A program made the position numbers and the translations under genes. 23,924 nt of DNA from a virus: IMG/VR virus record IMGVR_UViG_3300034110_001240, positions 1 to 23,924 of that record, one strand, 5' to 3'. This document shows, piece after piece, positions 5,848 to 17,176 of this stretch (its first letter is position 1; every line of letters begins with the position of its first letter). The notes under the pieces are model-generated. The model did no database searches. It had not been told where the DNA came from and saw only the letters and a list, made by a program, of their open reading frames with translations.

Positions 5848-8800
5848 GCGTTCAAGTTCCCCCACTGATAGCGCTTCACGCCGTTCTCATCGAACACCTT
5901 GCCGCCGTTGTTGTTGATGACCTGACGAGCGCCACCGCCAAGTGGGCTGTTCAATTCGAAGTTGCCAGCCTTGTCGATGCGCCAGCCCTGCACCCCGGCG
6001 ATGTAGTTGTCCGACTGGATGAAGAAACCGATCTTGGCGTTTCCGATCGATGCGTCTTTCACAAACAGGGTATTCAGGAAGACCTGCCCGCCCTCCACCG
6101 CAAACGGCACCGATATGGCGCCGCCGGCGATGGTGTTGACGATGGCGAACCGGTCAGCGCTGACCAGGAACTGACTTTGCAGCCCGGCGCCGGTGTTCTC
6201 GATGCCGAGGCCGATGCCGGCTGCGATGTACTGCCCCGTACCTGAGTTGTATTGCATCTTCACCGACCAGCTTGTGGTGATTTTGCCGTTCACGTCATTG
6301 ACGATTGACGTGTTCTGCTCAATCGCCGCCTCTTGATTGCCGACCGTTGTGCTCAGTTGGGTCAACTGCTGAGCTGTTGCCTGCTGGTTTGTAACAACAA
6401 CCTGCTCGAGCTCGGTAATGTTCGCCGCGTTCGCTCCGATTTTTGCGTCGAAGGTCGTTATACGCCTTGCCATTGCCTCGTTCTCGGAGGCTCGAACCTT
6501 CGATTCGGAAGCGATGGCCGCAGTGCTGGTGTGGCTTTTGATCGCGTCCGCGAGATCGCCAGCGCCGTCATCGTCTCGGTAGGAGGCGCGAAGGGCTTCG
6601 AAGGCTGTCGCTTGCGCAGTAACCTCTCCGTCGAGTTCGATGATCTCGGTGGTATTGGTCGCCACCTGCTGGGCAAGGCCGTTTGCCGTCTCGATCGACT
6701 GGCCGACATCCAGCCAGTAGTCAGCATTCGGCGGTGGGGTGTTGATCGGCACCTGCTCGGTCGCTTGGTAGATGCGCCCATCTTCGACCACCATTTGCCC
6801 GGCCTCATAAATCTGGTCAGGCTTGTAAGCTGAGAGGCCATCGAGCGCGTCGATTTGATCCTGGAGGCCGGGAATCTTGTCGATTTCATCAGCGAGCTCC
6901 TGCCCCAGCTCCGTCTTCGTGATTTTTCCACCAAGAGCGGCCAGGTATGCGGAGACATCGTTCGAGGCCTGAGCAGGCACATAGAGAAACGAGCTTTTCC
7001 CGTACGCATTGGAGGAGCGGACGAAATAGTAGTAGTTCTTCCAGAACCCCAGCCCAGTGTGCGTAAAAGAAAGCCCCTGACCCAAGTACTCGGCGTCATT
7101 CGAGGTCGCAGTCGGCGAAGTGCTGAAGAAGTATTCGTAAGTGCCGCCGTTCAGTCCGTTCTGAGAGTTGCTCGGAATCAGCACAATGTTGTCGATCGAC
7201 GACTGCACAACACAGCTTTCCGGAATCGGCGGGCCGTTGATGCTGACGGTGATCGTCACCTCACCTGAACGCGCCATGGGGCCGGCGGCCGCCACGCTCA
7301 TGGTGTAGTTGCCGGACGGCAGTCCATTGATGGCGCACTCCGTCGACGTCGCAGGAACGTTATGCGACTGAATTGCGGTAGTGCCCTGCCGCACGATGAC
7401 GATGTACTCCTTCACCACGCCAGCAGGAGGAGTCCACGACAGGACGCCCTGCGTTACCTCGGCCGTGGTGTCCTGCGTCCACGCGAGATTCGTTGGCGTG
7501 CCCAGTCCGCCGGAAGGCAGATTGATGAAGCCAATGGGGTTATACGGTTGGCCGACGGCGTCGTCGAAGATCGCAGGCTCGTACTGCTTGACTTGAACCG
7601 TGCAACCCTCGCGATCGCCCATCGACCAGTCGGAGACTATGAACTCGCCAAGGATGTTCAGCGACGGCAGGTTTACGCGCACCACACGACCCGGCCGGCA
7701 GTTGTAGCCGGCGAAGTTCATCGGGATGCTGATAGCGCCACCGGCGCGGCGCCGTCGCAGCTCCATGTTCGCCAGGCGCTGCGCTTGGTACGGATTGGTG
7801 ACATAGGAATAGGTCAGCGTCTCCGCCGCCTCACCGCCGTCCTCAACGATCCATTCGGCTACGCTGACTTCCGGGTAATCCGTCTCGGTCCACGACTGCT
7901 CCGGATCAATGAAGGTGCCGCGTACGGTGTTAATTGCCGTGTCATTGGTTGGCTCAGTGCTGCCGGTGACTGTGCCGATCACCATATCCTCGGTGATCTC
8001 GAAGTCGTACGGGCCGTAATAGGCGCCGGCCTGGAACATCCAGCGGCCGCCAACACGGATCAGATGCCCGCCCGACGCTGCTTCCAGCTTCTGGAGAACG
8101 CCGGTGCGCTGCTCGTCCGCGCCAATTACGCAGCCGGTGCGATACCGCTGGCTCGTCGAGCCGTCGGCATTGGTAACGCCTTCGTCACAGACGTTGGCAG
8201 CGCTGGCGAAGGTCTCGAAGACGATTTCATCGTCCGGCACGTTGCAGCGGTTGCGCAGGAACCAGAGCAGATGCAGCGCAGTGTTTGCGCTGTAACCCGC
8301 CGCCCCGGTGCGCGGATCGTAGATATCATTCCGCCCGCGAACCACAAAACGCGTGTCGGGGATACCCGATGGAAACTTCTCCGCGCTGTAACGCAAGGAA
8401 ACCCGCACGTAGGACAGGCCGCGACCGATCTGCGAGTCTTTCCAGTCGGGGCAGTTTGCCTTAAGGAAAGCGTTCACCTGAGTCGGATTGACGACCAGCT
8501 CGTAGCTGGCCAGCGGGCCGAACGCGCCGATCTCTTCCTCGCCGAGGTAGATGTTTTCGAGGGCATCGATTGCGCCCTCACAGAGCACGTACACCAGGTG
8601 CAGCCATTCGCCCTCGCCCTGATCGCCGGACTGCTCCTGCGCCCACACCAGCACGCCCCCGGTGGAGACGCGACCGAGGATGAACCGCACGGGTGCCTTC
8701 GAGGAGCGTACGGTCTGGGCAGACGGCTCGTTGTCGCGCAGGGGCGATTTGGTGTTGAGCTTTTCCTGCTGCTCGGCGGCGTAAAAGGCAAGCGCTGCGC

Positions 8801-10494: not shown

Positions 10495-13404
10495 TTAGCG
10501 CCGCGCGATGAGCTGGCGGATGGTTCCGTTCATTTTCAGGTCGCGCACGACGAGCTCGTAGCCGCCCTTGGCGCCCTGCATCGCCGCCTCGCGCACCATG
10601 TTGACGGTGGCGTCATCTGGTGTGCCTTGGAAGCTGAAGCTCTGGTGGAAGACTGGAGCAGCCGAAGAGCCCGACGAGATTGGGACGACGTTGGAGGTGG
10701 CCGCCGCAGCGGTTGCGCCGACGTAACCGCCATCTGCGTACCCTTTGGCGTTCGCGTTCATGCGCTCGAGGAATTCCCGTGCGCCTGGCTGGCTCACCGC
10801 TTCCTTGCGGACAACGAACTCGCCGCCGTGCACAACGCCCTTCGGCTCGAACTTGCCGCCGTCGCCCGTGTAGCCGCCGTCGGAGAAGCCGAACTTCGAG
10901 CCGTAGCCAGCGGCAGATGCGCCGAGCGTGGAAGACGTTGCGCCGGCAGATCCGGCTGCGAGGCCATTGCCGGCTGAGGCGCCGGCGGTCAATCCGCTGA
11001 AGACGGTGCCGAAGATGCCAACCGCCGCCTGTCGCACCTGGATGCGGATCAGGTCAGCGATGATGCCGTCCGCCAGATCCTTGAACGACAACTTCCCGGT
11101 CTTAACGAACTGGATGATGCCGTCTTCCATGTTGCTGAAGGCATTGGTGAACAGGTTTCGAGTCTGGCCGGCGACATCGCGCGCCTGCTCCGAATAGGTC
11201 TGAAACGCCGACGAAGCACCGAGCGCCCAGTCCGATTGGGCCTTGTCCACGTCCGTGTAGTACTGCTGCTGCATGCCGAGACGGGTTTGCAGCGCTGATC
11301 GGAGGGCTTCGGTTTGCTGGTTGTACAGCTCGGTGCTGCCTGAGGATTTATCGCCTTTGTTGTAGTCATATGTCAGCCGATCCATCTGCGACTGATACGA
11401 CTGCTGGATTTGTTGCTGCTCCTGCAACCGCTGAAGAGCTTTATCCCCCAGTCCTGCGCCGGCCAACTTATCGTTCAACCCGCCTTGCGCAAGCTTGAGC
11501 TGTGAGTTCAGATTCTCCTGGAATGCCAGCAGCTTCTGCGTCTGGTCTGTGGAGATCTTTTTGAGTTCGTTCTCTTTTTCCAGACCCGCGTTGCGCTTGA
11601 GTTGTGCTGTGATCAACTGCTGATTTGCTAAGAGCGACTGCTGGTCCGCAGTCAGAGTTTTCTTTCCTTTGATATCAGCGAGTTCCTGCTCCCACTTGAT
11701 CAGCGCTTGCTGCGCGGCCCCGAGCTTTTGAACGCCACCTCCTTGCGCCCCGATCAACGAATTCTGCTGAAGCAATACCGCGTATTGCTGCTTGGCCTGA
11801 TCGAGAGCTTTTATGCCGGCGTTTTCGGTGTAGGCCTTTGTCTTGGGCTGGCTCTTGTCGAACTTGGCCTGAATGTCAGCAACTACCTTGTCGATCTCCG
11901 CTTGCGACCTTCCTGCCTCGACGCCAAGTTTTCGCGCGTCTGCGATGTCTTTCGCCAGCTTTGCTTGATCGCCAAGTTCCTTTTTCGACAGAGCATTCCA
12001 TTTGCTCTCAGCGGCGATGCGGTCCTGATTCTGCCGAGTTGCTGCGGCGTCAATTTCGGCTTTTGAAGCCGCCACATCACGCTGCTGCTTCAAGGACTTG
12101 AGCTGAGCCTCAATGAATTTTGTCGACTGACTGTCTGGGCCCAGCTCGTCGCTGAAGAAGCTCGACAGAAAGCCTCCGGACTTTCGCCCTTCCAGAACCT
12201 TTTCCAAGTTCGCAATCTCCTGATTCAGATCAGGGAAGAGAGAGCTTTTTACATTGGAATACGCGTTGCTAATCGCGGTGCCGATATCGTTCCAGTCGCG
12301 CTCGACCTCTGAAAGTGAATCGCGATATTTCTTCAGTCGCTCCTGAGCATTTTGGTTCAGTGACTCGCTTAGGGAATCAAGCGCCTCCTGCTTTTTGCCT
12401 TGGTTGTCCAGCGCAACGATTACCTCATACTGCGCGGAGGTGAGCAGCCCATACTGGGCGCTGATCTTTTCGGCTGCCTTGGTAGCGTTGTCGCCCATGT
12501 CTCCCAGAGATTTGGCAACCTCACCTGCACCCTTCCCAGTGAACTCTGAAATTGATGCTGATGCCTCGGCCAGATTTTTGAACTGGACCTGGCTGAGCCC
12601 GCTGCTTGCGGCGAGCGCCACCACGGCGTCTTTGGCCTGAGACAAGTTGCCGGTTATTGTCGCGGTGTCCTTTGAGATTTTCGAAAGACTTGCCGACGTC
12701 TGTCCGGAGCTTGCCGAGCCTGAAAACAGAGCCTTATTGAAGGCACTCGCCTCTTTTTCGGCATCGTAATACACCAGCGCCAGCGCGCCCGCTGCCGATG
12801 CCGCAACAGTGAAAGGGTTAACGAGGCTCAGCAGGTAGCCGCCCAACGCTTTGGAGGCCGCACCAATACCGCCAAACGAATCTTTGATTTGAGCCCCTTG
12901 TTGCAGGAAGACGGTGAGCGGTGCCTGCCCCCCTTGAAGCGAGACGAAAATATCGGAAAATTGAGCGGGCAGCATTCTCATTGCGGCGGCCGTCTGCTTT
13001 GAGGTGTTGCCTGTTCGAGTCATGGAGTCGTTGAAACGGGCGAGCTCGGCGCGTGTCGCACTGATTTTGGACTGATAATCGGTGTAGGTATCGAGGTCTA
13101 GGGTGCCGGAAGCGCGATGACGAGCCAACTCTCGTTCTTGGCGATCAAGCTCCCCAAACTTTTTTGTGAGCGGATCGATTTGACCAAGAAGCGATTCGAT
13201 TTCGTTGCGCTCTGAAGCGAAAGATTTCGTAGCCTTGTCGGCGCTCTTGCCCGCGCTCTCCATTCCGCTGCCGGCCTTCGCCATTGAACGCTGGGTGGGA
13301 ATTCCCAGTGATTCCAGCTCTTCAAGAGCCCTTCGCGTGTCCGCAGCTTTCTGTTCTGCGTCCCGACTATCAATCTCCAAAACCAAGCGCGATGTTTGAG
13401 CCAT
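10495..13404 (-). CDS. Tape measure protein, 969 aa
   Basis: Sets tail length and is ejected with the DNA. The N-terminal third is a coiled coil (about residues 10-130). Residues about 150-215 show the tape-measure core ([20 protein letters not shown]; a hydrophobic [20 protein letters not shown]). Long Gln/Lys/Ala-rich helices follow to about 740. A lambda H-type C-terminal region lies at about 745-790 ([20 protein letters not shown], then [14 protein letters not shown]). A Gly/Ser-rich stretch leads to a final helix ([20 protein letters not shown]). The ATG is preceded by GGAGAAAGGT. Using the common relation of about 0.15 nm per residue, a tail near 145 nm is expected. Its last 25 residues resemble those of the mosaic protein at 16131-16772. 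Confidence 0.95.
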
Positions 13405-13420
13405 ACCTTTCTCCAGGCAT

Positions 13421-13442
13421 AAAAAAACCCGCCGAAGCGGGT
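13421..13442 (-). terminator. Terminator between the SHOCT gene and the tape measure gene
   Basis: On the minus strand ACCCGC-TTCG-GCGGGT, with a stable UUCG tetraloop, is followed by six further T. It starts 15 bases after the SHOCT gene stop and ends 17 bases before the tape measure start. It would end the accessory gene's transcript and also block late transcripts without antitermination. Confidence 0.88.
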
Positions 13443-13457
13443 CATTTGTGCAGGCAT

Positions 13458-13799
13458 TCAGCTCTGCAAGATTTTGGCTTTTTCAGCCTCGTACTCGGCC
13501 TCAGTGAGGAGGCCTTTCTCTTTTAGCCCGCCGAGCCGTTCTATCTTTTGATACTTGTCCTCAGAAGGCTCAGCCTCAGGGCGAACTCTGATTGGTTCAA
13601 TCGGTGCAATGGAAGATGCGGACCACACGATAGAGACCACCCAGCCAATTAGCGTCCAGCCGAGGAACAGGTTCAACAGGAGGATCGAGTTGAAATTTGG
13701 ATGCCGGCGGTGGCGTGCGTTGAGACTTGGCATGAAGTAGACCAAAAACCCCACGAACAACAGGACCAGCAATCCCAGTGGACCGGTATCGTTTTGCAT
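13458..13799 (-). CDS. Superinfection immunity-like membrane protein with C-terminal SHOCT domain, 113 aa
   Basis: Two hydrophobic segments (about residues 7-23, [16 protein letters not shown], and 40-58, [20 protein letters not shown]) flank the polar [12 protein letters not shown] loop. [12 protein letters not shown] is the hallmark of the T4 Imm-like superinfection immunity family, small inner-membrane proteins that hinder DNA entry of related phages. After a charged linker, residues about 87-113 form a SHOCT motif ([20 protein letters not shown]). The RBS is AGGGAGG seven bases before ATG. The gene breaks the chaperone-to-tape-measure order that is otherwise conserved, ends at its own terminator, and diverges from a plus-strand gene, so it is a typical lysogenic accessory gene (moron). 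Immunity function is inferred from the family. Confidence 0.85.
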
Positions 13800-13825
13800 G
13801 CCAAACCTCCCTGATTAATGGCAGC

Positions 13826-13854
13826 AATCTACCACCATCCGCAGGAAGCACCAA
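13826..13854 (-). promoter_or_regulatory. Possible sigma70 promoter for the SHOCT gene
   Basis: On the minus strand TTGGTG and TAGATT stand 17 bases apart, about 27 bases before the start codon. Each matches its consensus only in part (about half and four of six), so this is a weak candidate. A separate promoter would let the gene be expressed in the lysogen. Confidence 0.25.
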
Positions 13855-13929
13855 AACGGGCTGTACGAATCCCCAGTAACGCCATTTCGCTCACCGATAG
13901 TAGCCTCTCGCCTTCACGCAACGGATAAC

Positions 13930-13962
13930 CCCAGTCCTTTGCCTGCAAGCCCAAGGACTGGG
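13930..13962. repeat. 10-bp perfect inverted repeat between the divergent accessory genes
   Basis: CCCAGTCCTT (13930-13939) and AAGGACTGGG (13953-13962) are exact inverted copies separated by 13 bases. They lie 40 bases before the plus-strand 86-aa gene and 130 bases before the minus-strand SHOCT gene. There is no U-tract on either side, so a regulatory operator or a leader RNA hairpin is more likely than a terminator. A smaller inverted repeat, GCGCC/GGCGC, follows at 13966-13981. Confidence 0.55.
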
Positions 13963-14002
13963 ATTGCGCCAATTTCGGCGCGTTTATGACCTGGAGGTCG
14001 CA

Positions 14003-14263
14003 ATGAGCAGCTTTGAGGGAGCCCTGATTACCCATAGGGGCGTCACGTTTGCCGTCGTTATCGTAAAACACCACTACACGTCGTCATCTAGCGCAGCGCA
14101 GCCGGTCCGCGAATCGTTCCAGCCGCACTTTCCAGGAGTGCCCGTTGTTCTTGCGTCACAAGATTCGCGGGGAACCTTCCGGTATCACGGTCGGCAAGAT
14201 CTGGCCAAACTCCTTGCAAGCCTTCACCCTTCGCAGATTCCGTGGCGCAAATACCACACGTAA
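14003..14263 (+). CDS. Accessory protein of unknown function on the opposite strand, 86 aa
   Basis: ATG at 14003 has GGAGG five bases upstream and lies on the plus strand, against all surrounding late genes. The product begins MSSFEGALITHRGVTFAVVI and ends DLAKLLASLHPSQIPWRKYH(T). The middle holds FPGVPVVLASQDSRGTFRYH. It is an alpha/beta protein with no membrane span. The pattern (early ALITxRGVxFAVV, FPGVPxVL, final IPWxKY) matches a small protein I have seen repeatedly in Pseudomonas genomes, but without a known function. It diverges from the SHOCT gene across a 203-base gap. The late transcript would be antisense to it. A competing leftward frame (14088-14309) also has a good ribosome-binding site but less protein-like sequence. 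Confidence 0.72.
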   Translation: MSSFEGALITHRGVTFAVVIVKHHYTSSSSAAQPVRESFQPHFPGVPVVLASQDSRGTFRYHGRQDLAKLLASLHPSQIPWRKYHT

Positions 14264-14285
14264 CTGAGACCATTTCGGACTCGTC

Positions 14286-14333
14286 TCCCGCAGGCGTGAA
14301 TCTATTCATTTTTGCTCCTGCGGGACGTCCCGC
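14286..14333 (-). repeat. Overlapping palindrome and hairpin downstream of the tail chaperone
   Basis: GCGGGACGTCCCGC (14320-14333) is a perfect 14-bp palindrome eight bases after the chaperone stop. Half of it also pairs with a distal copy: TCCCGCAGG (minus strand 14325-14317) with CCTGCGGGA (14294-14286). The two structures exclude each other, and the second encloses an AGGAG-CAAAA-ATG start signal. There is no U-tract. Confidence 0.45.
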
Positions 14334-14340
14334 GTTGTAG

Positions 14341-15068
14341 TTAATCCTCACCACCAGCTAGGCAAACCGCATCCAGCGCAAACATCACATCATCAATCTC
14401 ATCGCGCGGCAGCGGCGACGGGTGCGACTCCAGCCAGTCGGAGATCTCCCGCGCCGACAGTGGGAGCGGGAATGCTCCAGCCATCCCGGCGATGTACCGG
14501 CGGCCGCGAGACACGTTCCGGTACAGGTTGAGCAGGTAGGCAGTCAGCGGGTCATTGTCGGGCTCGCCGGGGATCGCCATCTTCAGGCGCGAGTAGACCG
14601 CCCGGCGCTTCTCACTTTCCCCGCCCCACTCTTGCTCCCACTCGAAGCGGGCGACTGCTTTCCCACCGACTCAGCTCGCTCTTCAGCGGCATCGTTGGCG
14701 GCCAGCGCGCCTTCGCGCAGCACGAAGATGAAGAACTCGATGTTGTTTTCCAGCAGCTCTGCGGCCACTGGAGGGCTGTATTTGATCGGATTGCCGTCGG
14801 CATCCAGCACGCCTTCCCAGTCCTTCACGATGAAGTGACTGAGCAGCATCGCGTGGTTCTGGTGCTCGGTCATTTCGCCGGCGACCACGCCCACCTGGCC
14901 TTCTTCGAACCGCGCGTCGTTGCGCTGGATCCGGCGGCGCATGCGCTCGAGGGCGACTTGATATTCAGGGTTGTCGATGCTGGCCAGCAGGATCTTGGTA
15001 TCTTCGTCGAACTTCGCCCAGCGCTCACCGGCGATCGCCGGCTTCTTCTTGCCCAGTTGCAGAGCCAT
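14341..15068 (-). CDS. Tail assembly chaperone, GT-like -1 frameshift fusion, 242 aa
   Basis: Ribosomes slipping back one base at GGGAAAG (14658-14664) leave the zero frame after codon 137 (SVGK) and continue AVARFEWEQEWGGESEKR... into the 14341-14580 frame (MAIPGEPDNDPLTAYLLNLY ... to GGED, TAA at 14341-14343). The -1 frame upstream of that ATG is open and protein-like (EWEQEWGGES, RRAVYSRLK), and the ATG at 14580 lacks a clear ribosome-binding site, so the lower frame is best read as the T part of a fusion rather than as a gene of its own. The fusion recruits tube subunits to the tape measure. The 105-residue extension is close in size to the lambda T domain (about 144). Confidence 0.85.
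14583..15068 (-). CDS. Tail assembly chaperone, G-like short form, 161 aa
   Basis: Zero-frame product of a lambda G/GT-type gene that binds the tape measure protein during tail assembly. ATG at 15068 has GAGG seven bases upstream. The protein is charged and helical (ERWAKFDEDTKILLASIDNP; YQVALERMRRRIQRNDARFE), with a hydrophobic NNIEFFIFVLREGALAAND segment near residue 110-130. After the slippery site the zero frame yields only a low-complexity tail (SPASSGSKSGAGK...). This is typical: the functional extension is in the -1 frame. The gene follows the tail tube gene, as in lambda. Confidence 0.85.
   Translation of the reverse strand: MALQLGKKKPAIAGERWAKFDEDTKILLASIDNPEYQVALERMRRRIQRNDARFEEGQVGVVAGEMTEHQNHAMLLSHFIVKDWEGVLDADGNPIKYSPPVAAELLENNIEFFIFVLREGALAANDAAEERAESVGKQSPASSGSKSGAGKVRSAGRSTRA
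14658..14664 (-). other. Programmed -1 ribosomal frameshift site, GGGAAAG
   Basis: In the zero frame it reads gtG GGA AAG, the XXXYYYZ register required for tandem slippage to GGG AAA. It is the same heptamer used in lambda G/GT. A second GGGAAAG lies about 44 bases downstream but in the wrong register (GGG AAA G), so only the first can work in this way. Confidence 0.88.
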
Positions 15069-15139: not shown

Positions 15140-16060
15140 TTACGGGGTTGGATCAGCCGCTTCGCGGGTGATGGTCGGGCTGAGCTTGGCGACGGTGTAG
15201 TTCAGCGTGACCTCGATCAGGTCGCGCTTGCCACCGTTCGGCAGCTCGCCGTCCACTTCCACGGCCGGGAAGTTGAACGTGTACTTGTTGCCCAGCGAGT
15301 CGGTGATCGGGAAGACAACGGCGATCGGCGTCCGGGTGAAGGTGTTCTTCCAGATCTCCCACGCGCGCTTCGACCAGGCCAGCGTGATGCTGCCGGTGAC
15401 CGCCGCCTCGGTGGCGATGTGCGCGCCCGGCCCCAGACGATCGGAGCCAAGGCAGCGCTGAGTTTGCAGGCTGTTGTCGAGGTTCACGGTCATGGCCGAG
15501 ACGCAAGCCACGCCTTCCAGCGACTGGCCGTTCACCAGGATCGTGCCGACGTTGTTGTTCGACAGGAACGGGGTGGTGGTCGGCGCATTCGGCGAAACGA
15601 CAATCGGGGTGTCGCCGTCGGTGTAGTCCAGGCACGCCATGTTGAACGTGGCGGTCACCTTGCCTTCCGACGGGATGTCCAGAGCGAAGGTCGAGACGTG
15701 CGCGCCCTTGAACACGCCATAGACGCCGACGTCGTTGTAGCCCTTCGCGATGCTGAAGGTGTGGCGTGTATCGCCCACGCGCAGGACGTCGGCCGTCCAG
15801 ACGCCGTAGAAGGCAGCTTCGAGCAGCTGGTCGAACGAGCCGAACGAGAACTCGGCTGTCAGATCGCCGCCGATATCGATGCTGGTCGCCACCGAGCCTT
15901 GGCTCAGCCGGGTGTCGGTGATTTCGTCGCTGACTTCAGTGTTGACGGTCGGGGTCAGCGCGTTGCCGGTGAGGCGCAGCGTGTCCCAGGTACCGGTGGG
16001 AGTAACGCCGGGCGTCACCTCCGCAATGATGTGGCTTACAACTTTTGCGCCGCTCGACAT
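15140..16060 (-). CDS. Major tail tube protein, 306 aa
   Basis: ATG at 16060 has GGAGA eight bases upstream. The product (MSSGAKVVSHIIAEVTPGVT...) is almost all beta, with tube-protein features: PTGTWDTLRLTGNALTPTVN near residue 20-40, EITDTRLSQGSVATSIDIGG near 46-65, FSFGSFDQLLEAAFYGVW near 70-88, and a regular strand pattern to the end. The pattern fits the phage tail tube family 2 type (Phage_tube_2). It lies between tail terminator and chaperone genes, with hairpins on both sides. The 306-aa length is larger than lambda V (246 aa) and may include a surface domain (about residues 150-230). Confidence 0.88.
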   Translation of the reverse strand: MSSGAKVVSHIIAEVTPGVTPTGTWDTLRLTGNALTPTVNTEVSDEITDTRLSQGSVATSIDIGGDLTAEFSFGSFDQLLEAAFYGVWTADVLRVGDTRHTFSIAKGYNDVGVYGVFKGAHVSTFALDIPSEGKVTATFNMACLDYTDGDTPIVVSPNAPTTTPFLSNNNVGTILVNGQSLEGVACVSAMTVNLDNSLQTQRCLGSDRLGPGAHIATEAAVTGSITLAWSKRAWEIWKNTFTRTPIAVVFPITDSLGNKYTFNFPAVEVDGELPNGGKRDLIEVTLNYTVAKLSPTITREAADPTP

Positions 16061-16084
16061 GGTAAGTCTCCAGATTGCGGTCGT

Positions 16085-16105
16085 AAAAAAACCGCCATTT
16101 GGCGG
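16085..16105 (-). terminator. Terminator in front of the tail tube gene
   Basis: On the minus strand CCGCC-AAAT-GGCGG is followed by seven T. It lies about 25 bases after the mosaic gene stop (16131) and 25 bases before the tube start codon. Confidence 0.78.
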
Positions 16106-16130
16106 CCTGCGATGGGCGAGCGGTTTGCGC

Positions 16131-16772
16131 TCAGCTGGTCTTTCCGAGATCCTTGAGGGTTGCCCGATACCCGAGATTCACGCCTTGCATCACAGCTTCT
16201 TTGATGAGGTCCACTGTCGATATCTTGGCCTTCAGATCTTCGCCGAGCTTCGTGTCGAGAATCTTGTCCGCCAGAAAAGCCGCGACTGCATCGGCGCCTT
16301 TTTCGCGAGCCGCCTCAAACCCGTTCGGCTCCTTGATGGCGAACTGATTGGCGCTGACGAGAAACTGCGAGTCAATACCCAGCCCAATACCGGCAGCCAC
16401 ATACTGGCCATCCACTAATTTGAGTTTGACCGTCCACTCAGGGGCCAGCTTCGCCGCCTGAACGCTGGATTTATCGGCGTGATCCTGCCGGACATACGTC
16501 ACGCCATCGACAACAACGAATGGCCTGGGAAAGTTGCATTGCATGGCGCCAATGTGGGTGGCAATCCCTTCATCAGCCTCGCATCGGGCGATGGATTCGG
16601 AGAGGACGTTTGCCTGGGCAATCTGTTCCAGCGGCGCCAACGGCTCAGAGTCAGATGCCGGCGCGCAGCCAGTCAGTCCGATGACACGAACCACGCCTTC
16701 GATTTCTAACTCTCCGCTTTCTTTGTGGAGCTTCCAACCGGAGACACCCGGCACATAATTTGCGCTCTGCAT
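16131..16772 (-). CDS. Mosaic tail protein with DUF1983-type domain, 213 aa
   Basis: ATG at 16772 has GAGG five bases upstream. The protein looks assembled from parts of other tail proteins in this window. Residues 1-24 (MQSANYVPGVSGWKLHKESG) match the end of the J-like protein (IQSDNYIAGVQGWRIDKAG). Residues about 115-150 (GQYVAAGIGLGID, SQFLVSANQFAIK) match its DUF1983-type domain. The last 25 (LIKEAVMQGVNLGYRATLKD) match the tape measure C-terminus ([20 protein letters not shown]). The J segments appear in reverse order compared with the J-like protein. It lies between the tail terminator and tube genes, an unusual place for such a domain. A role at the tail tip or in linking tape measure and tip is inference. 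Confidence 0.75.
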   Translation of the reverse strand: MQSANYVPGVSGWKLHKESGELEIEGVVRVIGLTGCAPASDSEPLAPLEQIAQANVLSESIARCEADEGIATHIGAMQCNFPRPFVVVDGVTYVRQDHADKSSVQAAKLAPEWTVKLKLVDGQYVAAGIGLGIDSQFLVSANQFAIKEPNGFEAAREKGADAVAAFLADKILDTKLGEDLKAKISTVDLIKEAVMQGVNLGYRATLKDLGKTS

Positions 16773-16780
16773 TTTTCCTC

Positions 16781-17176
16781 TCAGCCGGCGCGAAACCGGA
16801 TGTTGACGTTGATTTGGTAGAAGCCCTCGAACTCGCCGGCGACCACTTGGCTGGCTTCCATGCACTCGAGGTCGCCGGACATCCAGTAGGCGAAGTGCGC
16901 TTCAAGCGCGTCGGCCAGTTCGTTGATGGCTTTGGTTCCGGTGCGTTCCCGGGCGAAGCATTGAATGCTGATCTGCCCGGGCTTGCGGGTGTGCGGTCGG
17001 TCGGCCATGCCAGCCATGAAGGCCGAGGCGTACTGGATATTCAGGCGGCACCAGAGGCCGGTAGCCGGCGGCGTGAACACTTCCGGCTGGTTCGGGTAAT
17101 CGATCCGCGCCTGATCAATGCCAGTGAAGACGACCATGCGTGCGGTGATGAGCGCTCTGATCTGCGTGAAGGTCAT
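16781..17176 (-). CDS. Tail terminator protein (lambda U-like, DUF4128 type), 131 aa
   Basis: ATG at 17176 overlaps the previous stop as ATGA. The start MTFTQIRALITARMVVFTGI, a beta-rich middle (GLWCRLNIQYASAF; GQISIQCFARERTG) and the helix KAINELADALEAHFAYW fit the tail terminator family, which caps the tube after it reaches tape-measure length and binds the head connector. The length (131 aa, lambda U is also 131) and position between the gp10-like and tube genes agree. A pattern-level assignment with good context. Confidence 0.8.
   Translation of the reverse strand: MTFTQIRALITARMVVFTGIDQARIDYPNQPEVFTPPATGLWCRLNIQYASAFMAGMADRPHTRKPGQISIQCFARERTGTKAINELADALEAHFAYWMSGDLECMEASQVVAGEFEGFYQINVNIRFRAG

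Follow-up and report, generated by a model that had tools for sequence, protein, structure and literature searches.

The stretch of DNA analysed here, hereafter the window, is a 23.9-kb fragment (23,924 nt) of a phage record, in which the structural genes, from terminase and portal through J, are located on the minus strand. The open reading frame under study, ORF X (X), lies between the tail terminator and tail tube genes, exactly where the first-pass annotation had placed it. It starts with ATG 16772 behind AGAGGA, the stop of the tail terminator gene is 8 nt upstream, and 70 nt separate its end from the tail tube gene. The following features were found at this junction:

16781..17176, minus strand: tail terminator, upstream neighbour of X (phrog_179, E 4e-38)
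16131..16772, minus strand: ORF X, 213 aa, an accessory and probably late cassette of PHROG 18217; its orthologues begin at the same start
16084..16108, minus strand: intrinsic terminator (CCGCC-AAAT-GGCGG-T7) in the gap between X and the tube gene, based on a ten-phage alignment; fold -12 kcal/mol
15140..16060, minus strand: tail tube, downstream neighbour of X (PF18906, phrog_290)

The intrinsic terminator is kept in the window and in nine related loci, regardless of whether X is present or absent. Since it stands directly before the tail tube gene, the tube would need antitermination or a promoter of its own. A consensus promoter and terminator scan of the window did not list the terminator at 16084..16108 and is uninformative for X; the same scan gave no promoter for X itself.

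For the comparison of X with the tail tip protein J, five module HMMs (A-E) were built from J proteins alone and scanned against 64 short X-like ORFs and 76 J sequences. In the window, the corresponding segments are:

16695..16772, minus strand: X module E, aa 1-26, QSANYVPGVSGWKLHKESGELEI, like J 956-984 (J-derived HMM, E 1.3e-12)
16446..16526, minus strand: X module D, aa 83-109, PFVVVDGVTYVRQDHADKSSVQAAKL, like J 926-957 (J-derived HMM, E 3.2e-3)
16329..16454, minus strand: X module C, aa 107-148, WTVKLKLVDGQYVAAGIGLGIDSQFLVSANQFAI, like J 868-920 (HMM, E 2.9e-15; PF09327, 8e-12)
16197..16280, minus strand: X module A, aa 165-192, ILDTKLGEDLKAKI, like J 648-684 (HMM, E 6.9e-6)
6840..6950, minus strand: J module A, aa 648-684 (J-derived HMM)
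5940..6290, minus strand: J distal stalk C-D-E, the source-type sequence for X (C 6132-6290, D 6021-6116, E 5940-6026)

Pairwise BLASTP aligned X 108-146 with J 870-917 (52% identity, E 5e-10) and X 1-25 with J 958-981 (E 4e-4). The opposite order of these two J segments, described in the first-pass annotation, was thus borne out by BLASTP as well as by the J-only HMMs, and the DUF1983 match noted there in the middle of X was recovered far above the cutoff (45.5 bits vs. 22) with PF09327 Phage_Tail_Tip, the current name of that family, which covers the distal part of J-type central fibres. The match is limited to columns 20-63 of 139, and the remaining columns are out of order in the relatives. 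Two J-like pieces, X 83-109 and X 165-192 (modules D and A), had been overlooked.

At E<=0.01, the J-only HMMs matched module A in 29, C in 58, D in 58 and E in 62 of the 64 collected X-like ORFs, while in the shuffled control 4-19 of 1280 sequences matched. The orders found in X were E-D-C-A (22), E-D-C (22), E-B-D-C-A (4) and a few partial forms; J proteins had A-B-C-D-E (60/76), A-B-C-D (10/76) or A-C-D-E (3/76), and none of the 76 displayed an X-type layout. The lone "BCDE" sequence in the X set was a truncated J. Independently of the module HMMs, separate parts of the PHROG 18217 profile align to J proteins, and their order along J is the inverse of that in the profile. The J stalk modules are therefore present in X in the reversed order E-D-C-(A), bar a few cases. 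A simple circular permutation of J is excluded, since E-D-C-A is no rotation of A-C-D-E. Matches of J's last module, F, to X were weak and near the shuffled background, and we do not claim this module. A PDB sequence search with X gave only a weak match, to lambda gpJ (E 0.23).

In J, modules C-D-E of PF09327 follow the hub and FNIII/Ig domains, whereas X carries E-D-C as stalk modules only, with neither hub nor FNIII/Ig domains, and hence is not a J-type central fibre. It had been allowed at the outset that such motifs could be generic to many unrelated tail proteins; this is true insofar as C, D and E are common in J-type central fibres, but the reversed order combined with an end resembling a tape measure protein (TMP) is not generic.

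That end involves two further segments:

16137..16232, minus strand: TMP-like C-terminus of X, aa 181-212 (TMP C-terminal HMM, E 2.8e-7; predicted long helix 175-208)
10537..10611, minus strand: TMP C-terminal helix resembled by X, aa 932-956 (BLASTP, TMP C-terminal HMM)

The likeness of the last 25 residues of X to the TMP, already seen in the first-pass annotation, was confirmed by pairwise BLASTP (X 185-209 vs. TMP 932-956, E 1e-4) and at the profile level. Two C-terminal types of TMP, which is of the lambda gpH type, occur in X-bearing phages, one with "QGAxxGY...RDLK" and the other mixed with "ELxxGGxxxR"-like ends, and the last ~30 aa of X match one of them. The type-1 TMP-end HMM matched 5 X proteins (3e-10 to 7e-7) and the type-2 HMM 23 (5e-7 to 5e-3, with single scores near the shuffled background), all at the extreme end of X. 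When X ends were aligned with TMP ends by hhalign, type 1 gave 96.9% (E 1.8e-10) and type 2 94.3%, as against 0.2% for the crossed pair. In the reverse search, with an HMM of the type-2 ends of X, the best non-X matches were the C-termini of three long ORFs, at most 4 residues from the end; sequence identifies two of these ORFs as TMPs, and the third (1215 aa, in G015) is taken as a TMP because the TMP-end HMM also matches its C-terminus. These profile comparisons suggest that X C-termini often match one of two mutually unrelated TMP C-terminal types. Taken with the J modules, they support the initial description of X as a protein pieced together from permuted tip and tape-measure segments and extend it to the whole family. 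X itself is several times shorter than a tape measure protein and has no match to the TMP_2 or Tape_meas_lam_C domains.

Searched for as GG[YHF]T[GR], the TMP motif GGYTG was found in 6 X proteins (13,176 residues), vs. 4 occurrences in the 483,841 residues of other ORFs. A cysteine motif, CxCxGG, recurs in X right after module C (CMCCGGPAGFDQK, CMCEGG, CFCSGGYTGG) and at times runs into GGYTG. It is carried by the X proteins of L038 (aa 138-142), L039, L051, L098 and Aurca01, and by the X ends of L005 and L034.

The PHROG 18217 profile covers aa 1-200 of the 213 residues of X (E 7.7e-29), which places X in this family, and also matches Medea1_0020, Cruim01 gp12 and Aurca01 gp11. The family is recorded there with no function, architecture or relation to J or TMP, and its members are annotated as "hypothetical protein" or "host specificity protein J". 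No paper describing the X architecture was found in a literature search covering sources other than subscription papers. The family itself was already known as a PHROG cluster.

About 60 proteins, nearly all from Pseudomonas phages, share the X layout. Relatives were found in IMG/VR contigs, in Pseudomonas genomes (9 of 199) and in the cultured phages Cruim01, Aurca01 and Medea1. A single-protein search of the genome contigs gave no relatives; an alignment-based search of the same contigs gave 61 loci, many of them J. An insert of ~80 aa (VSVEVASYSKYDLPKNA...ETEEELADRLEKAK) in the long forms of X was found in 52 ORFs, all of them X-like (L034, L037, L044, L100 and others).

Nearly all members with known neighbours occupy one of two sites, namely between the tail terminator and tube genes, or between Q/NinG-like genes and the holin and terminase genes. 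Half of the family is located before holin, outside the tail operon. In one phage (G016) the terminator-tube junction is empty and X is at the holin/terminase site, and another (G017) bears one X at each site. The tubes of phiPSA1 and MR15 share 92% identity with that of the window; in these two phages there is no X at either site, only J being matched. Where X is present, it diverges far more than its surroundings: relative to the window, one phage (G002) has a tube of 100%, a J of 95% and an X of 53%, and another (G014) has 99%, 85% and 46%, respectively. Cassettes are swapped at breakpoints ranging from the terminator gene stop into the tube start. Near-identical operons therefore bear very different X genes or none, and X is an accessory, hypervariable late cassette, its late expression being assigned from gene position.

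One could regard such a cassette as a selfish or neutral by-product, i.e., tail-gene fragments dumped by recombination where two sites tolerate them, or a store of sequence for J. Its mosaic content and the cassette swapping would agree with this, but across ~60 members the X ORFs are intact, hardly vary at the N-terminus and keep their modules in a fixed order, and X and J share no DNA beyond chance (below), all of which makes this explanation very improbable.

An AlphaFold model of X made with 40 aligned sequences had a mean pLDDT of 74 and a pTM of 0.30. In it, E, D and C form short hairpins and residues 175-208 a long C-terminal helix (pLDDT >90); in the monomer the modules are unpacked, as separate hairpins on a string. 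A Foldseek search of the model against PDB gave no match, because the model is not compact. In the tip lumen of lambda, the C-terminal helix of gpH forms a trimeric coil, and a trimeric beta structure is expected for the gpJ fibre (PMC10721106).

Every X module derives from a part of the virion that is trimeric, either the gpJ fibre or the three-helix coil at the gpH C-terminus (PMC10721106), and it is possible, if doubtful, that X serves as an accessory component of the virion. It would then be a small trimeric fibre, or an attachment of the tip or neck, that is built from J-type beta modules, anchored by a TMP-type coiled-coil helix, and tunes or broadens host contact. The packing of X into the tail operon of the window, 8 nt behind the terminator gene, points the same way, and hypervariability is typical of adhesins. 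Against a fibre stand the half of the family located before holin, away from structural genes, the absence of X in isolated relatives, a C-terminal type that is unmatched to the TMP of the phage, and the lack of a compact fold in the model, although a monomer model cannot judge trimers. The papers on Medea1 and on Cruim01/Aurca01 yielded no proteomics.

The relation of X to the tail of its own phage bears on several of these readings. X modules gave 51.4% against the J of the same phage and 51.0% against the J of other phages (permutation P 0.27, n=16 phages, two of whose records, G018 and G026, look like one prophage). The longest identical DNA stretch between X and J was 10 nt, and codon-shuffled X gives 10-13 nt. 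The first-pass proposal that X is a domain kept in reserve for recombination with the host-range gene is thus not supported, there being neither long X/J DNA identity nor a preference for the own J, and gene conversion between X and J was rejected on the same grounds. Likewise, the C-terminal type of X does not track the TMP type of the same phage, and a fit of X to its own TMP was rejected. The alternative suggestion that X bridges tape measure and tip loses weight, because isolated relatives lack X, the end type of X is independent of TMP type and half of the family is before holin.

A role as a tail-assembly helper, templating or guarding J folding or holding the TMP end during tip assembly, would account for the resemblance of X to both partners and for its expression, late with the tail genes, at one of the two sites. 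It is unlikely, because X is dispensable in phiPSA1 and MR15 and does not co-vary with its own J or TMP. Since no fit to these was found, the partner for which X is selected is probably another one. Moreover, the variation of X is accompanied by hardly any change in the J, TMP type or tube of the same phage, which suggests that the partner of X lies outside the virion.

Tail assembly is the step blocked by two defences described in the literature, Tai (PMC11364771) and Tab (PMC10884400). Mutations that escape Tai map to the C-terminal region of J, and phi80 avoids harming itself only by means of AtiEcA, a late-expressed anti-Tai protein (PMC11364771). Tab activity is tied to the TMP C-terminus and is countered by the late-operon anti-Tab (PMC10884400). 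The J C-terminal region of phi80, which is identical to that of the Tai-sensitive phages HK106 and HK544, was found to hold modules C-D-E (aa 1046-1157).

Based on the above results, we tentatively prefer the explanation that X is a soluble decoy that shields tail assembly from blockers and is not part of the tail. Made late in infection, X would display the J stalk and TMP C-terminal surfaces and soak up the proteins that bind them, most likely tail-assembly blockers of the host or of resident prophages. Its presumed targets are Tai-like blockers aimed at the J C-terminus and Tab-like blockers aimed at the TMP C-terminus; once these are bound by X, the real J and TMP of the phage would be free to assemble. 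The reversed module order may keep X from co-assembling with J, and the variable C-terminus and spacers could reflect an arms race with varied blockers. The preference for a decoy rests on X mimicking exactly the targets of Tai and Tab, and on its being an accessory, hypervariable gene, presumably expressed late from two unrelated sites, of which one, used by half of the family, precedes holin and the packaging genes. The absence of X from viable relatives is counted in its favour, as is the hairpins-on-a-string model, which is compatible with linear display. It is more doubtful, but conceivable, that X founds a class of counter-defence of its own, a dual decoy combining a scrambled linear J stalk with a TMP end, with module shuffling independent of the phage's own tail.

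Searches for the defences themselves gave mixed results. Tai-family matches were found in 15 of 199 Pseudomonas genomes, one of them beside the integrase of an X prophage, which also speaks for a decoy. This is a remote Tai-family protein of P. baetica (27% identity; L208:11473-11967, plus strand), adjoining the integrase (L208 9679-11139) of a prophage that bears X before holin; phrog_5483 looks like a broad helical family, and remote matches need not be Tai. Of 27 records or genomes that bear X, only 2 had such a match, one of them the prophage just described, which is not above background; general co-occurrence with Tai was thus not found, and this counts against a decoy. The Tab-family search had no match anywhere and is uninformative, and the PADLOC defence models gave no match.

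Like X, AtiEcA of phi80 and anti-Tab (JBD26 gp30) are small, accessory, late-expressed and encoded before or within the packaging region, AtiEcA before the packaging module and anti-Tab between the terminase genes. It is by analogy with them that a function is proposed for X, which differs in being larger and modular. AtiEcA and anti-Tab showed no sequence likeness to J, TMP or X, X had no match to their PHROGs (phrog_20632 and phrog_13614, respectively), and tblastn of both on the X loci gave E above 0.4; they were rejected as sequence relatives of any of the three. Known counter-defences thus work without such mimicry, which argues against a decoy. Decoys usually keep the native fold of their target, which the reversed order may lose, and the window has X closely fitted into the structural operon, as would be expected of a virion gene; both points also weigh against it. 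The accessory virion fibre remains the main rival, nearly as likely as the decoy.

The same parts could also serve attack. X might be a dominant-negative weapon, its J and TMP fragments being released or expressed to poison the tail assembly of competitors. Oligomerising J modules and TMP ends would suit this purpose, and tail-assembly interference between prophages is known (PMC11364771, PMC10884400). However, X lies in late operons and no promoter of its own was found in the window, so it would be made together with its own J and TMP, to which its similarity is no lower; moreover, expression of Tab and Tai, the known blockers, takes place in the lysogen. We consider this explanation improbable.

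If the decoy reading is true, phages carry a modular bait against tail-assembly defences, whose composition would report the tail surfaces that such defences recognise in nature, and X could be used as a lure for unknown Pseudomonas blockers. If X is instead a virion part, it would be an unrecorded tail component with a chain order reverse to that of J, testing how J-type beta modules fold and trimerise. Under either reading, a PHROG partly annotated as "host specificity protein J" gains a defined architecture and a testable role.

Several other genes in the window and its relatives are worth describing. A small gene at 13458-13799 (minus strand), between the tail chaperone genes and the TMP gene, encodes Imm_superinfect (PF14373) and SHOCT domains and is probably a superinfection-immunity accessory gene inside the tail operon. 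A SRAP gene (HMCES/YedK-type) is found at 1719-2420 on the plus strand, opposite to the structural genes. Two adjacent ORFs, 14583-15068 and 14341-14580 (minus strand), occupy the tail chaperone position, and the latter of them matches Phage_TAC_18 weakly; GGGAAAG at 14621 is outside the usual frame for a -1 slip, and a lambda-like G/GT frameshift is unclear. In Aurca01 (L011), J appears to be split into two overlapping ORFs, 11093-13885 and 13824-14429, both annotated as tail fiber protein, through a frameshift or a sequencing error near the stalk.
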